DNA of 64,000 nt, taken from contig NAVB01000028.1 of assembly GCA_002179805.1 (NCBI GenBank), positions 1 through 64,000 on the forward strand, given 5' to 3'. The notes beneath the pieces are model-generated. The model ran no database searches and was not told the DNA's origin. It saw only the letters and a program-made list of their open reading frames with translations. The position numbers and the translations under genes were made by a program. The DNA is from Acanthamoeba lenticulata (lineage: Eukaryota; Discosea; Longamoebia; Acanthamoebidae). Shown here in pieces: positions 3,001 through 10,743 of the stretch. Within the stretch, counting starts at the first letter, position 1, and the number at the start of each line of letters is the position of its first letter.

Positions 3001-6000
3001 CACCTGTGGCAACAGGAGCACAACCTGACCTTCACCCTGACGCCGCTCAACGTCAACAGCGGCAACACGACTGAAGAGGTGGCCAGCTCGACGGAGATGA
3101 GCGACGCGGTGGCTTCGACTTCGACCTCTACCAGCACTACTACTACTACCACCACGACGACCAGCACCACACCGTCTGAGAGCAACCCACCGGCGGCCGA
3201 CCCGTTCGCACTGACAGGTCGGCTTCCCCGCGGCTGCTCTTTATTTTGAACCGAACCTCGCCTCACCTTTGTCGGATCGGCGTGATTGGTGAGCAGAGCT
3301 GGGCCGACCTGCGCTGGAACGGTTCCTGGGGCTCGTGGCGCCCGCCTGGCTGCGGGACGAGGGGGCTTCCGAGACGACCCTGTCCATCCTCAACCTCCTC
3401 CGGGTGCTCGACGCCATCAACCGGCTCTGGAGCTCCCTCTTCACCAACGTCACCGTACTGCCTCCTCTTCTCTCTCTTCATTCTCTTTGGCGTGCTTGAC
3501 AAGCGACAAGCAAGATCCCAAGTTTGCTGACCTCCCCCCCCCGGCGGGAATGACGTGCCCCCGGTCGCGTCCTGACTTGACAGAGCCGAGCCGAAGCGGA
3601 GGATGCGCCCAACTGCCGAATCAACCCGAGCGAGTTCATCAGCCCCAAGCTCACCGGGAAGCTCTCGCGCCAGCTGCAAGACCCCATCACCGTCTGCAGC
3701 CACGCCTTCCCGCGTTGGTGCCACGAACTCGCCGCCGGTAGAGTCATCCTCCCCCTCCCTCTCCTCCTCCCCCTCTTTCGTTCTATTGATCATCGGGCGC
3801 TCATCCTCGGGCTCGCTGTGCAGAGTTTGCGTTCCTGTTCCCGTTCGACACGCGGAGGCAGTTCCTCAACTCGACGTCGTTTGGGGTCTCCCGGGCGCTC
3901 AAGAACCTGAAGATCACCATCCACGGCCAGCCCCTGCAAGTTCCCCGCCTCACCCACAACAAGGCATCTTCATCATCCTCCCTCCTTGATCCCCCAAAGA
4001 GACGCACAAAATGCTAACCACACGTGACCCACTTACATTACAGGTGGCGATCTCGAGGCAGCACATCCTGCAAGCCGCCCAGAAGGTGATGGCGCTCTAC
4101 GCGGGCCACAAGGCTGTCCTTGAGGTGGGCTACTTCAACGAAGTTGGCGTCGGAGCGGTATTGCCCCTCTTCCCCCACCACCACCCCAAGTCTCAGGCGT
4201 TGCCCGCACGGGCGCTCACTTCCTCCCCCCCCCTAATTCTTTATCTCGGGGGCGCGCGCACACACCAGGGCCCCACGCTAGAGTTCTACACGATGGTCTC
4301 TCACGAGTTGCAGAAGCGGAAGCTGGGCCTGTGGCTCGACCAAGACGCAGCCGCCTCGTCAGCCCACGTGGCGCCCATGCATGTGGAGGGCGCCACGGCT
4401 GCCGCGGGCGAGCAGGCCGCGGGCGAGCAGGGCAGCAACGATGCGCAGCAGTACACGTTCCACCCGGCGGGCCTCTTCCCGGCCCTCCTCAGCCCGAACG
4501 CGCCAGCGGCACGCAAGAGCGAGGTGGAGAAGCTCTTCCAGTTCGTGGGCAGGTTCGTGGGCAAGGCCATCCTCGACGGCTGGCAACTCGACTTCCCGCT
4601 CTCCGACCCCTTCTTCAAGGTTTGTCCTCCCCTCCCCTTCCCCCCCCCCTCCTCAAATTCAGCCAATCGTCGTCGTCGCCACCGTCATCATCATCATTAT
4701 TATTATCATTACTGTGGGGGGGTTTCTGACCACCATCGTCGCGCTGCTGGCGTTGGGGGGGGGGATAAACACGTCGTGGATGGAATGGAATGGAATGGAT
4801 TCGGGCAGGTAATGACGGGCGAGCAGCTGGGCTGGGAGGACCTCCGGCTGCTGTTCCCCTCCTACGAGAAGTCGCTGCGGCCGCTGCTCCAGCTCAGCCG
4901 CGAGAAGCTCCGCATCCAGCGTGACGCAAGCCTCGTACGCGCCTCCTCTCGCCTCTCCCTCAAATCTATCAATCATCTATCACCCCAATGGGGGAGCCCT
5001 GCTGGTGGCGGTGCAATTTTGGGGGGTGTTTCTGAACAACGAACCTGCACGCCCTTGGCTTTGGTTTGGTTCTCTTGGGCGGGGCGGCTGGGGGGTGCAG
5101 AGCGCGGCGGAGCGGGCGGAAAAGGTCGCGGGCTTGCGCCTGGAGGGCCGACGAGTGGAGGACCTCTACCTCGACTTCTCGCTGCCGGGATTCGCGGACT
5201 GGGAGCTCAAGCCTCACGGCGCCGACGTCGACCTCACCATCGACAACGTGGACGAGTACGTCACGCTCACCGTCAAGGCCCTCCTCCACGACGGTGTGCG
5301 CCTCCAGCTCGACGCCTTCCGTCAGGGCTTCGCAGAGGCACGTCTCTCTCCTCCCCATAATCCCTTGCCTCTTTCTTTAGTTTCTGCAACTTTTTTCTTA
5401 ATTCGAGAAATACACGTATGCGGGAAGCTGACAACTGGTCCGGGGGGGGCGAGCAGGTGTTTGCGATGGGGAACCTGCGCATCTTCACGCACCACGAGCT
5501 CAAGGCCCTCATCTGCGGCCTCCAGGACGACTCGGAGAACTGGCTCCCGCACGGTACGCGCTTCCACCACTCACCATCGTCGTCGTCACCGAAGAGAGCC
5601 CCCCCCCACCCCAAGCCAAGCGACGACTGATCTTGTGGGGCGGACGCGTTGTGCAGTGCTGATGGAGCACACGAAGACGGACCACGGCTACCACGAGAAC
5701 AGCCGCGCGGTCAAGTACCTGCTCGAGGTTCTGGTCGAGCTGACGCCCGAGCAGCGCCGCAAGTTCCTCCTGTGGGTCACTGGCAGCCCGCGTCTCCCCA
5801 TCGGCGGTACGCACCTCACCACCTACCCACCCAACCACCCAACCACCCACCTCCAACGGAGTAATCATAATAAACAAGAAAAAAAAACTGACAACTTGTT
5901 CCTCTCCCTCCCCTTACGTGTATGTGCGCACCGCCACCACCAGGGTGGAAGGACCTGGTGCCCAAGCTCACCATCGTGCGCAAGGAGGCCACCGACCGCT

Positions 6001-6290
6001 CCCAATCCGCCGACGAGTACGAGGCTTCCCACCTTCCCGCTCCCCCCCACTCCCCAACAAAACAAAAGGGATCCATCCATCCATCTGCTCCTCCTCCTCC
6101 TCCTTTGTTGGGTTTGGGTTTGGGGGCCCCCTTGTTGACTGGCGGTGGTGGCGGGGGGACGTACAGATTCCTCCCATCGGTGATGACGTGCTTCAACTAC
6201 CTGAAGCTGCCGGACTACTCGAGCAAGGAGGTGCTCAAAGGCAAGCTCCTCTTGGCCATCAACGAGGGCGCCGAGTTCCATCTCTCTTGA
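1..6290 (+). CDS. TRIP12: TRIP12/UFD4/UPL3-type HECT E3 ubiquitin ligase, 5' partial
   Basis: This is the C-terminal part of a large HECT ubiquitin ligase; its start lies before the window. The first exons carry armadillo-like repeats with the family motif [10 protein letters not shown] followed by YFRREGV (about 375-430). A middle region around 1030-1600 contains the conserved [13 protein letters not shown] block. There follows a long Lys/Glu-rich, acidic insert (1650-2700) that is probably disordered. The HECT domain is split over about ten exons from roughly 4045 to 6290 and includes [12 protein letters not shown] in the N-lobe. The catalytic cysteine lies in [15 protein letters not shown], with its TGC codon at 6188-6190. 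The protein ends FHLS, as is typical for TRIP12. Relatives polyubiquitinate N-end-rule, ubiquitin-fusion and DNA-damage substrates. Introns are 60-150 bases. The G/C homopolymers near 4637, 4731-4764 and 5590 are intronic. The stop is TGA 6288-6290. Confidence 0.9.
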
Positions 6291-6434
6291 TCGCGTTGCT
6301 TCCCTGTCCTGGAGGTTGTTTTTCTTTGTTTGTCCCGGAATTGAATGAAAATAAAAAATACACAAATAAACAAAACAACAGTATGAGAAAAAGGAGAGAA
6401 ACTCTTTCGTAGAAACCAGATAACGCGCTTTCTC

Positions 6435-9109
6435 ATGGACGCCCTCGCTGACCAGCCAGGGGTCCTGCGCATGGTGTTTGAGCACCTGCCTCTCCCATCC
6501 CTTGCCGCCGCGTCGCTCGGTAGCTTCTCTTCCATCCCCTGCACTGGCTGCACTGGAGAAGCACAGCAAAGACAACCCATTTGGGGGTGGGGGGGGGCAG
6601 TGTGCCGGCGATGGTACCGCGTGGTGGAGGGCACCGAGGACGATGCCGACGATTTCAAGGAGGCAGGCGCGTTGTGGCGTGCCGTGGCTCTCCGACACCT
6701 GCCGGCGTGGAGGGAACCCGATGGCGACAAGATCGCGGCGGATGACGTCGCTACTGTGAGCGATCAACGCAGCATCGAGGAGCGGAAGCGCGAGCTCTGG
6801 GGCCGTCCGGCGGTCGTCGCTCCGGAGGTTCCTCTGGCTCGATGGAAGTACACCGTCCGCTGTACATCGCCCCATCCCATTGTGTGTGATGCACACCAGC
6901 CAAAGGCAGAGCCGCCTCTGTGACACCCTCACCCATTCGTCCATCATCACGACCATCTTGCGCAGGCGTGATGGACGTGTTTCGGAGCGTGGGTGCGCTG
7001 CTGGAGAGCAACTTCAGCCTCGACGCCTGGCACGACATGCGCGGCGTCGACAGGTTCCTCTCGTCCCCTCCCTTGTCCCCCAACCTGGTCCCTGCGTAGA
7101 GGCACACACGTGCGCGCGCGCGCATGCTCATGCACATATGTACACATACGCGCACACACCCGCCACTCGCCGCGGGCTGGCAGGGGGTGGGACTACGACT
7201 TGTGGCACTACGCCCTCCACTTGCTGCAGCTGCACGACGTCATCGTCATGAAGGTGCGGCTCCCCCTCGCCCCGCCCTCCGCTCTGCCCAGACCGTCCCG
7301 CGCAAGTCCAACGCACGCGCGAGGTGTTCCCGTCCTGGCGGTGCCACAGGGGCGCGAGGTGCACGCCTACAGCGTCACGGAGGCCGGGCGCGTGTGTCTG
7401 GCCGAGGGCAGCCCCGAGATGGTGACGTACACGCGCGTGCCTCCCGGCGACGAAGGCATGCGCATGCTCGACCTCAAGGTGCGCCCCCTCCGCTCTCAGA
7501 GACCTTATAACTATTGGGGGGGGGAGCCTGAATATTCTGGACGGGGGCAGGAATGGGCCAAAGGCCGCGACGTGAAGGGCATCAACCAGGCGCTTGCCCT
7601 CGGCTGGATCGCTATCCACGACGACACCGTGCGCGTCTCTCTTTCTCTCTCTCTCTCTCTCTCACGCATCATAACCACCGACCTACCGCGGGGGGGGGGG
7701 CAACTTGGCGCAGGAGGAGACCGACAAGCTCGCACGCGCGGCGGCAGATCCCGCGACGCTGAACCAGCGCAAGAGCCTCGCCCGCGTCGTTCGGAGTGTA
7801 CGCTTAGTCCCTCGCGCGAACCGTTTGGTGCGTTTTTGTGGAGGTGTGCGATCGCGCTGATTGGAGCTGCGCCTGGACCAGGCGGATGCGCCGAGGGACG
7901 AAGTGCGGGAGCAGCTGGCCCAGATCGAGCGCCACGCGCATGAGGACAATCGCGGCCTTTTCCCCAAGGCACGCCCGTCTCTTCATGCAGGCCCACGGGA
8001 GTCTAATATATACACACACACACGCATGCACATGACAACGCACCACCGCCCCTAAAGGAAGTGTACGCCAACCTGAAGCGGCGCAAGTTCATCAGCAACC
8101 AGATCTCGCGCTCCTACCGCGTGTCCCGCGGCATCAACTTTGTGTCGCATCCGGGCGAGGTGCTGCGCGTCTTTGCGCTCAAGCGGCCGCCCCCGTCGGC
8201 TTCTCGAGAAGCCATCGCGAACAACAACACCGACGACGATGGCGGTGGCGACGACAATGTAGAAGTCGAAACTGGGCCATCAGGTGAGCGCGAGAGCGTG
8301 TTCTCGCACAAGACCAAGTACTTCCAGCTCCACAAGGTGCGTTTGCGCCCCTCCTCCTTGTGGTCCATCGCCTCCTTTTTGCTTTCCGTTTCGTTCGTTT
8401 GCGTTGAGGTCTGAGGGCCGTCGTGCATCGATTGGGGGATAACAACAACAACAACGACGACCACGACGACGCCAGGGGTTCTACCGGGAGGAGCGCGAGG
8501 TGAGCACGAGCGTGCGGGACATGCTGCTGGCGCTCGACCGGATGGCCGCCTACACGGCCCCCATCCGGGACCTCGAGCAGTGGCTCCACACCGGTACCGC
8601 TGCACGCTCCCCCCACGCATGGGCCCGCCTCCCACGAGGGAGGTGACAGAGAAGAGGGGGGGAGGCTCATCATCTCCCGAATCACATACATGTCGCGTGT
8701 GCCTCAAAAGACGCGGCGATGGTCGTGGACGCTGTGCTCCACAACCTGGTGCTGGTGGGCGAGGCCGGTGGCATCGTCATGAACGAGCTCCTCCGCCGAG
8801 AGAAGACCAATGACAACCCGGTGGTGCCCCGGTTCGTTTCCCCCTCTCTTCCCCTCGCCCTTCATCTAGAATGAGGCTCGCGCTCAAACTAAGGCGCACG
8901 TCGCCGCGGCTCAGGCCGGTGGGCATCAACTGGGAGGAGCTGGTGGTCATGCGTAACAACATAATTCACAAGTACTTTATCTTCCACGACGACCTCACCC
9001 GCCGCACACGGATGAAGCAGGCCTGGGAACTGGTCGGCAGGCTTCTCGAACACGGCCGCCCCGCCCTCCAGGGCCTGCTTGCCGCGCTCCAGCAGGCTCC
9101 GTCTGTCTG
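6435..9109 (+). CDS. F-box / PheRS-alpha N-domain-like / HepT-type HEPN fusion protein
   Basis: Proposed exons are 6435-6519, 6601-6885, 6966-7053, 7184-7253, 7350-7479, 7551-7628, 7714-7797, 7867-7968, 8058-8336, 8476-8593, 8711-8831 and 8915-9109, giving about 544 residues. Residues 1-45 form an F-box (LRMVFEHLPLPSLAAASL, then VCRRWYRVVEG). Residues 125-335 match the order of elements in the N-terminal winged-helix region of cytosolic phenylalanyl-tRNA synthetase alpha: a YSVTEAGRVCLAEGSPE strand-helix, a VPPGDEG loop, ALALGWIAI, then LKRRKFI with YRVSRGINF. No aminoacylation core follows. Instead, residues 400-540 resemble the HepT/DUF86 HEPN ribonuclease fold: VDAVLHNLVLVGEAG, then VVMRNNIIHKYF, which supplies the R-x4-H-x-Y signature (about R493, H498, Y500; codons at 8952-8975). 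The junction at 6885/6966 is the weakest point; the F-box part could be a separate gene, with the second starting at ATG 6970. The intron at 7969 appears to begin GC. The gene ends 30 bases from a convergent neighbour. I infer an F-box-tethered RNA-acting protein, possibly aimed at tRNA. Confidence 0.7.
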
Positions 9110-9139
9110 ATCCTATGATACGAAGAGGGGAGTGGCTCC

Positions 9140-10743
9140 TCAAGCAACAACAATTCCTCCCAGCTCGCCCACCAGGCCGGAGAGCGGGGACACCAGGCTG
9201 GCTGCTGCGCTTCCGCGCTCGTAGGTGCCTGCCGAGCGCAACAGCGGCGGGTGAGTGTGCGAAAAAAAGGCCCACAAGGATGATCATCAGAAGGGCGGCA
9301 TTCGCGCGTACAGGCGGACTGAGACTGCGCCGGCGTGACCGTGTCGGGCAGATAGCCCGAAGTGGGCCCGTTGCTCGAGATGAGGCCGCTGCCCACCGAT
9401 GCCTTGAGGTAGCACGTGCCGCTCGACAGCGTCCACGCAGAGCAGCGCTTGGTTTGCTTGCACTTGGTGCAGCATTCCTCGGGGCTGCTGACCTGCACGC
9501 TGGAGAGGTCGTTGCCCTTGATGTCCGAGTTGGCGACGATGGTGCAGTTGGGCGCGATGTCGCAGGTGCAGCCCGTAAAACCCGCACTGCACTCGCAGTA
9601 GCCGCCCTTGCAGATGCCGTGCGGCCCGCAGTCGATGCCGCGGCAGGGCGATTCCGCAGGAGGCTCCGTGCACAGCGTCCCCGTGTAGCCGTCGAGGCAC
9701 TTGCACTTGGGCCCGCCGGCCTCGGCCGAGGCCGTGTCGCAAATCCCGTAGTACCCACAGTCGACTTGGAAGCATGGCGTGTAGTCCAGCTTTTTGCTGC
9801 AGTTGGCCTCGCCAAAACCGGGCTGGCACAGGCACTGGCCGCCCATGCCGCCCATGCACACGCCGTCATTCAGGCACACGACGTTGTCGCACGCGTGGAG
9901 CTCGGCCTGGGACAGGCACGAGAACTGGAGCACGAGCTGCTGCAGCCCTGCGGAAGGCCACCCAGCAGTGCCGTAGCCCTCGACCTCGGACGGAAACCAG
10001 TAGTTGCCAGAGCCGTGGCAGTTGGGAGATTCAGTGGTGTTGGGGCAGTTGGTACAACAGTGGATGTTCCTCACCGTGCCGTCCGAGTAGTAGCCTGGGA
10101 GTCCCAAAACGAGGTGTCGGCGTCAGTCCCCCGAGCCATGGATCAAACAATTCAGAGGACCACCCGTGAGAGAGAGAAAGAGGAGGCCACCAGAGACGTT
10201 GAGGCCAGCTGTGAAGCCGTCGATGTTGCTGATGTCGATGAAGAGGGTGTCGCCAGAAAGGCCGCCCTCAAACAGCGTCACGGAGCGGCACTCACCGGAC
10301 TGGCCAAGAAAAAGCACATCCGACGCATGTAAAGTTGAGCTTCATCACCACCACTCAGCCGACAGATGGTCATCCATCGGTCGACCGAGGGGAGAACAGA
10401 AAACAAAGGCGCCTCGCGTACCGTGGTCAGCGCAGCAGCACGGTCACCCGTCCCGTCGGTGGGAATCGTGTAGCTGACGCCCTCCGCGGGGAAAGGCACG
10501 TCACAGTTGGACTTGACGATGGTCTGCTCCAGGTACTTGAACTGCTCCGGGCAGTCCTGTACGACGCCAAGGGCAAAGGGAGGCGAGGATGAGAGGGAGA
10601 ACAGAGAAATCTAAAACAAAAAAAAAAGAGGGGGAGACGCGGCGCACATTCTGGATGATGTACTGGTAGGCGCCCTGAGTGAGGCTGGCCTGGAGCATCA
10701 CCGCCACCAAGAAGAAGAAGACGGCGCTTGCGCGTGTGAGCAT
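9140..10743 (-). CDS. Secreted cysteine-rich protein with EGF-like and PAN/apple-like modules
   Basis: The start at 10743 is chosen because it opens a clear signal peptide (MLTRASAVFFFLVAVMLQAS...TQG). The next exons (about 10555-10440 and 10330-10170) give a Cys-containing domain with DISNIDGFTAGLNV, which vaguely recalls the DVSLVDGFN strand of thaumatin-like proteins; that is only a suggestion. The long exon from about 10095 to 9310 contains three EGF-like units (CxxxxCLNDGVC..., CGYYGIC..., CGPHGIC...) and then a PAN/apple-like block with SSPEECCTKCKQTKRC and CSAWTLSSGTC. A last short exon, joined across an intron at about 9315-9225, ends LVGELGGIVVA with stop TGA 9140-9142. This hydrophobic end could be a GPI signal or chance. 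N-glycosylation sites are present. It is expected to be secreted or on the cell surface, binding sugar or protein. It lies tail-to-tail with the F-box/HEPN gene. Confidence 0.7.

Follow-up and report, generated by a model that had tools for sequence, protein, structure and literature searches.

In the first 64,000 nucleotides of contig NAVB01000028.1 of Acanthamoeba lenticulata (hereafter the window), a gene on the forward strand very probably joins three modules in a single protein: an F-box, the N-terminal winged-helix module of phenylalanyl-tRNA synthetase (PheRS) alpha and a HEPN domain of the HepT/DUF86 type. An earlier note on this DNA had proposed that one gene carries these modules, and its proposal is borne out by an open frame of 12 exons and by a relative, P0001, with the same modules in the same order. 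The HEPN domain retains the complete R-x4-H-x-Y motif, which is identical in all the sequences that cover it. We propose that the domain is a domesticated prokaryotic ribonuclease, a reading that is weighed below against the alternatives.

Gene structure and the relative P0001

Once 11 short introns are removed, a single open frame begins with the ATG at 6435 and ends with the stop codon 9108-9110 (Table 1). All 11 introns restore the frame, ten of them with GT-AG borders and intron 8 (7969-8057) with GC-AG; this junction, with GC and not GT as its donor, is backed by the alignment to P0001. Two splice sites are ambiguous: intron 6 may have its donor at 7629 or 7635, and exon 8 may start, after the acceptor of intron 7, at 7867 or 7882. 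The four combinations encode 538, 533, 536 and 531 amino acids, every one open and free of stops or frame breaks, and align to P0001 with scores of 1652, 1654, 1664 and 1666, respectively. On this comparison the alternative donor of intron 6 would be preferred, the 531 and 536 amino acid versions being nearly tied. Residues are numbered here on the 536 amino acid version, so that the motif residues given in the earlier note as R493, H498 and Y500, on a slightly longer model, become R485, H490 and Y492. The first model, of 538 amino acids, was used for the Pfam, NCBIfam and protein searches, the P0001 alignment, the Smith-Waterman comparisons and the per-segment identities; its two extra residues fall within the PheRS region.

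About 5.8 billion predicted proteins were searched and the 7,993 candidates with the most words in common with the query scored. The sole match returned was P0001 (531 amino acids, E 2.6e-207), which is 62% identical to the query across 98% of the query's length. A Pfam scan of P0001 recovered all three modules of the window protein, in unchanged order. The P0001 frame is uninterrupted where the window gene has introns. Because 531 codons and a stop account for 1,596 of the 1,682 bases of its contig, this contig is most simply read as a spliced transcript; an intronless copy of the gene would look the same. Residues flanking the junctions are similar in the alignment, in which small gaps occur only close to the junctions of introns 6 and 7, besides a gap of one residue close to the junction of intron 11. 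With hand-chosen borders in the 538 amino acid numbering, identity between the two proteins is highest around the motif (85%), followed by the HepT region (71%) and the PheRS module (68%), and is lower in the F-box (45%) and in the linker after the PheRS module (33%). When the window protein and P0001 were combined in a profile, the 7,992 candidates that were scored included no other relative, and a PADLOC scan of P0001 gave no match. In the assembly searched (48.5 Mb in 1,825 contigs, the window lying on contig C28), all ten matches to the part of the protein that follows the F-box were the gene's own exons, and no second copy was seen at the sensitivity of the search.

Table 1. Positions in the window of the fusion gene, its exons and modules, and two upstream motifs.
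Feature	Positions	Strand	Basis or remark
Fusion gene	6435..9110	+	12 exons, in phase over 11 introns; aligns almost full length to uninterrupted P0001
Exons 1-6	6435-6519, 6601-6861, 6966-7053, 7184-7253, 7350-7478, 7551-7628 (or -7634)	+	
Exons 7-12	7714-7797, 7867- (or 7882-) 7968, 8058-8336, 8476-8593, 8711-8831, 8915-9110	+	
F-box domain, aa 10-38	6462..6629	+	Split by intron 1; PF12937 and PF00646 above cut-off
PheRS-alpha N-terminal winged-helix module, ~aa 116-330	6861..8150	+	PF18553, NCBIfam, Smith-Waterman, hhalign; no catalytic core matched
HepT/DUF86-type HEPN domain, ~aa 409-500	8524..8999	+	PF01934, weak tblastn, fold of P0001; conserved C-terminal region continues to 9107
RNNIIHKY = R-x4-H-x-Y (R485, H490, Y492)	8952..8975	+	Coordinates checked; identical in 7/7 sequences covering the motif
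Two AATAAA motifs	6350, 6365 (6350..6370)	+	Between HECT stop 6290 and ATG 6435

Evidence for the three modules

The Pfam HepT-like model PF01934, whose cut-off is 23.5 bits, matches the window protein at 29.4 bits (E 7e-7), the isolated domain at 32.3 bits (E 9e-8) and P0001 at 25.5 bits. The HepT/DUF86 assignment of the earlier note thus holds in both proteins, and its coordinates for RNNIIHKY proved exact. A protein search with the domain only brought six shorter proteins, five of which cover the motif. PF01934 exceeds its cut-off in three of the five proteins P0002-P0006, the fragments P0003 and P0004 falling below it. RNNIIHKYF is present in all seven sequences that cover the motif (the window protein, P0001 and P0002-P0006); the eighth row of the alignment, P0007, stops short of it. 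Two of these proteins, P0005 and P0006, are distant HepT relatives encoded on contigs of 5-7 kb. Since they carry the same motif at only 38-44% identity to P0001 in the HepT domain, the motif appears to have been kept across a long divergence.

When the domain was run blind by tblastn against 72,556 plasmid records, only seven matches came up, all weak (E 0.02 to 2). Five lie on DUF86/HepT-like or toxin-component genes that adjoin a nucleotidyltransferase or antidote gene, and two on unrelated genes. It should be noted that three of the five come from one genus and are not independent; three of the five were examined in place. When the window domain was aligned with three plasmid HepT proteins, DAV..NL was common to it and the two cyanobacterial proteins, the Parabacteroides protein having DSV..KL, and all three shared with it GEA, a tryptophan before the motif and R-x4-H-x-Y-F. 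An AlphaFold model of P0001, made with the P0002-P0006 alignment, is of low confidence overall (pLDDT 64 and 52 in the motif blocks), and eight of its nine best PDB matches are HEPN/HepT toxin entries. This fold resemblance suggests a HEPN helical bundle for the HepT part. For the PheRS part the model is not usable; no PheRS chain is among the listed structural matches, in which the parts of the model outside 383-531 were barely compared, and this has no bearing on the PheRS fold.

Regarding the origin of the domain, a six-frame PF01934 search of the window's genome gave no match, the domain being interrupted by introns, and a scan of genome contigs with the two-row HepT alignment gave 290 stretches and no relative. 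Scans of viral contigs with P0006, P0001, P0008 and P0010 as queries found no relative either. Sequence searches of the PDB with the whole protein and with a two-row profile each gave six matches at E up to 1, consisting of weak F-box chains and chains unrelated by title. The viral contig, contig and PDB scans thus brought no viral or named prokaryotic close relative that would point to a donor of the HepT domain.

The evidence for the PheRS module is spread over several comparisons. The Pfam model PheRS_DBD3 (PF18553, cut-off 26.6 bits) scores 25.5 bits with the whole protein (E 1.6e-5), 1.1 below the cut-off, and 26.5 bits with the isolated region (E 8e-6), 0.1 below it; the match is weaker in P0001 (22.2 bits, E 1.7e-4, 4.4 below). 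The NCBIfam PheRS-alpha model aligns its positions 40-176 with residues 155-320 at E 7e-4, far below its full-length cut-off. A profile of archaeal-type PheRS-alpha N-termini, made of the 45 sequences that passed a length and open-end filter out of 49 picked from 80 loci, gives 12.1 bits with the window protein against 0.1 with its reverse, and 9.2 against 1.3 with P0001. With hhalign the middle region matches at E 1.6e-4 (probability 50%; reversed 0.23), and at E 1.7e-5 (79%) after addition of 8s8b, a solved PheRS-alpha chain from the PDB; the whole protein against a smaller profile of 20 of the 45 rows gives a weaker result (E 0.013, probability 3%). The Smith-Waterman score against the N-terminus of 8s8b is 82, a value that none of 1000 shuffles reached (mean 34.2, standard deviation 5.0, maximum 62), and P0001 scores 69 against a shuffle maximum of 61. 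Common landmarks are AEGSPEMV/NEGSPEFL, GINQALALGW/GMSKAMQFKW and NLKRRKFISN..SRG/ELKKRKLISE..SKG. The class II catalytic core PF01409 has no match to the window protein in the Pfam list up to E 10, and the identification of the protein as a synthetase was rejected on this ground. These results fit the N-terminal PheRS-alpha module without a catalytic core that the earlier note had described, and both profile families whose absence that note named as refuting its proposal, PF01934 and the PheRS-alpha N-terminal domains, were matched. A six-frame PheRS_DBD3 search without matches in the window's genome is uninformative, because 14 control genomes also gave none.

The module resembles the N-terminal DBD of cytosolic and archaeal PheRS-alpha in that the match is collinear, beginning with the first winged helix and reaching as far as LKRRKF..SRG; unlike PheRS-alpha, the window protein has no PF01409 match and carries the module mid-way in a longer chain.

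At the N-terminus, Pfam F-box-like (PF12937) scores 31.2 bits (E 1.8e-7) against a cut-off of 24.3, and F-box (PF00646) 30.5 bits (E 3e-7) against 20.5. In P0001, PF12937 passes with 26.0 bits (E 7.8e-6) and PF00646 is below its cut-off, so that the F-box assigned in the earlier note is recovered in P0001 by one of the two models. Matches to Skp1 genes are present in the window's genome. The F-box proteins of Skp1-Cul1-F-box (SCF) ligases share this N-terminal F-box above the Pfam cut-off, but the window protein has the PheRS and HepT modules in place of their usual substrate domains, which are leucine-rich repeats and WD40.

Neighbouring genes and other loci of the genome

A HECT ubiquitin ligase gene (3990-6290, forward strand; HECT E 3.6e-17) ends with its stop at 6290, 144 bases before the F-box gene, and two ubiquitin-system genes thus stand head to tail. 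AATAAA has three matches at this upstream locus, the two listed in Table 1 and a third at 5869 within the HECT gene. The stop at 6290, followed by two AATAAA motifs and then a new ATG, led us to reject a joint transcript, and the arrangement is in line with separate transcripts for the two genes. On the reverse strand, PAN and EGF domain matches at about 9390-9885 indicate a gene convergent to the fusion gene. In a Pfam scan of four neighbouring frames (HECT in two upstream, PAN/EGF downstream, one without a match), no MNT antitoxin or NTP_transf_2 domain was found; a toxin-antitoxin locus was rejected for lack of an MNT gene (GS-x10-DxD) in these frames. No Rfam family reaches its gathering score within the window.

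NTP_transf_2 proteins occur elsewhere in the window's genome, including an MNT-like GSRAHGLATAESDYDV stretch at C254:32356-32520 (L025), a possible but unlinked partner for the HepT domain. Archaeal-type PheRS-beta is clear on contig C30. Six-frame searches of the genome found no intact cytosolic-type PheRS-alpha gene, which may be explained by short exons or an assembly gap. Their PheRS-alpha matches comprise an organelle-looking pair on C74 and C1193 (the best), a weak pair on C516 and C1060, and C300 at E 2; a stretch on C27 from these searches reads, by eye, like lysyl-tRNA synthetase. The genes on C516 (about 8000-10500; L033) and C1060 (L034) form a very similar PheRS-alpha-like pair with a partial DBD3 and PF01409 at E 5.5e-5. 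Judged by eye, their catalytic region seems to lack the motif 2 and motif 3 residues, and the pair is perhaps a PheRS-alpha pseudoenzyme.

Proposed function and alternatives

We suggest, with a probability of about 0.45, that the C-terminal domain is a prokaryotic HepT-type HEPN ribonuclease domesticated in a eukaryotic gene. The PheRS-alpha winged-helix module, devoid of the synthetase core, would direct the nuclease to tRNA, in the first place tRNA-Phe, or to a complex that carries tRNA, tRNA being the natural first guess as target since the nuclease is joined to a PheRS-derived module. The F-box would tie the protein to Skp1-Cul1, and its own ubiquitination would keep the nuclease scarce until needed, SCF ubiquitination thus playing the role that antitoxins play in bacteria. 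Aphanizomenon HEPN, which we take to be the family of 7ae6, reportedly trims the 3' ends of tRNA (Songailiene et al. 2020). An earlier HEPN toxin is also mentioned, in a report on a Legionella HEPN, as digesting tRNA and ompA mRNA (PMC11586414). A wider picture, in which a HepT toxin domesticated in the amoeba cuts tRNA, is steered by a headless PheRS piece, is held down by SCF degradation replacing the antitoxin, may be switchable at the motif tyrosine and shuts down translation on infection or stress, must be called doubtful.

Several published observations weigh against so simple a reading. The Legionella HEPN toxin was shown to cut 16S and 23S rRNA, and its R98A and H103A substitutions had a negligible effect on RNase activity (PMC11586414); Shewanella HepT was shown to cut ompA mRNA (PMC7641770). 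It follows that tRNA is not the sole target of this toxin family and that an intact motif is no proof of catalysis. In addition, an N-terminal fragment of Drosophila PheRS-alpha acts in Notch signalling (PMC9094542).

Some of these observations lend weight to a different role, which we consider unlikely, in which the protein acts chiefly as the substrate receptor of an SCF ligase, with PheRS and HepT modules that recognise an RNA or ribonucleoprotein partner (PheRS, tRNA or the ribosome) without cutting, the partner being ubiquitinated. The F-box is N-terminal, as in ordinary SCF receptors; the Drosophila fragment acts alone, and the motif arginine and histidine are dispensable in the Legionella enzyme. 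However, a pure binding domain need not keep the full R-x4-H-x-Y that is identical in all seven covering sequences, and the F-box proves one of the less well conserved segments when the window protein is compared with P0001. It is also conceivable, though improbable in our judgement, that the HepT nuclease is kept inactive by nucleotidylation of the motif tyrosine through an unlinked MntA-like nucleotidyltransferase, in which case the F-box and PheRS parts would be secondary and serve localisation. HepT is indeed described as silenced by AMP added to this tyrosine, and the residue modified by MntA in Shewanella (Y104) is dispensable for toxicity there (PMC7641770, in part). The tyrosine is invariant in the seven covering sequences and may thus be maintained for a reason other than catalysis. 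The NTP_transf_2 proteins of the genome, with the MNT-like stretch on C254, would offer candidate enzymes, but such proteins are common in eukaryotes, none has a link to the fusion gene, and the four neighbouring frames scanned hold no nucleotidyltransferase. An artefact of gene prediction, with neighbouring genes wrongly spliced together, is hardly credible. Two splice sites are ambiguous and the gene model was drawn from the sequence alone; yet P0001 reads uninterrupted through the same order on its 1,682-base contig with similar residues across the junctions, and none of the four splice variants has a stop or frame break, which brings this explanation close to refuted.

The domesticated ribonuclease that we favour can be set beside known systems. 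It resembles the HepT/DUF86 toxins of HepT/MntA pairs in its PF01934 score, its R-x4-H-x-Y motif, its GEA core and the fold of P0001; it differs from them in belonging to a eukaryotic gene with introns, in its fusion to F-box and PheRS modules, in the lack of an MNT gene among the four neighbouring frames that were scanned, and in extra residues inserted behind the GEA helix and behind the motif. The Drosophila alpha-PheRS fragment alpha-S likewise uses a PheRS-alpha N-terminal module without the core, but it is a piece of the normal synthetase and not a separate gene fused to a nuclease (PMC9094542, in part). In the passages of a 2013 HEPN census that deal with these families, the DUF86/HEPN-M family is given as 'Bacteria, Archaea' only, and eukaryotes are described as having captured HEPN repeatedly through other families (PMC3710099). 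The domains of Las1, Swt1, C6orf70, the KEN of Ire1/RNase L and sacsin, presented there as acquired and repurposed by eukaryotes, belong to other HEPN families, sequence comparison with them being by Pfam scan alone. The main text of the census does not contain the terms F-box, PheRS, phenylalan- or Acanthamoeba (PMC3710099). No paper describing an F-box, PheRS and HepT architecture was found in open-licence PubMed Central, judged by titles and openings, in agreement with the earlier note, which knew of no described protein of this kind. One bacterium that parasitises amoebae is reported to have both an F-box protein and an MNT-HEPN pair, as separate things (PMC4378268). The HepT donor may have been an amoeba-dwelling bacterium of this kind, but nothing links such a bacterium to the window gene.

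If true, the fusion would mean that a eukaryote has put the HepT/DUF86 branch of HEPN nucleases to use, in a single chain that also ties in the ubiquitin system and a module of a tRNA synthetase. If tRNA is cut, it would exemplify a toxin tamed by proteolysis instead of by a dedicated antitoxin, and it would allow the binding partner of the PheRS-alpha N-terminal module to be tested directly, away from the enzyme.
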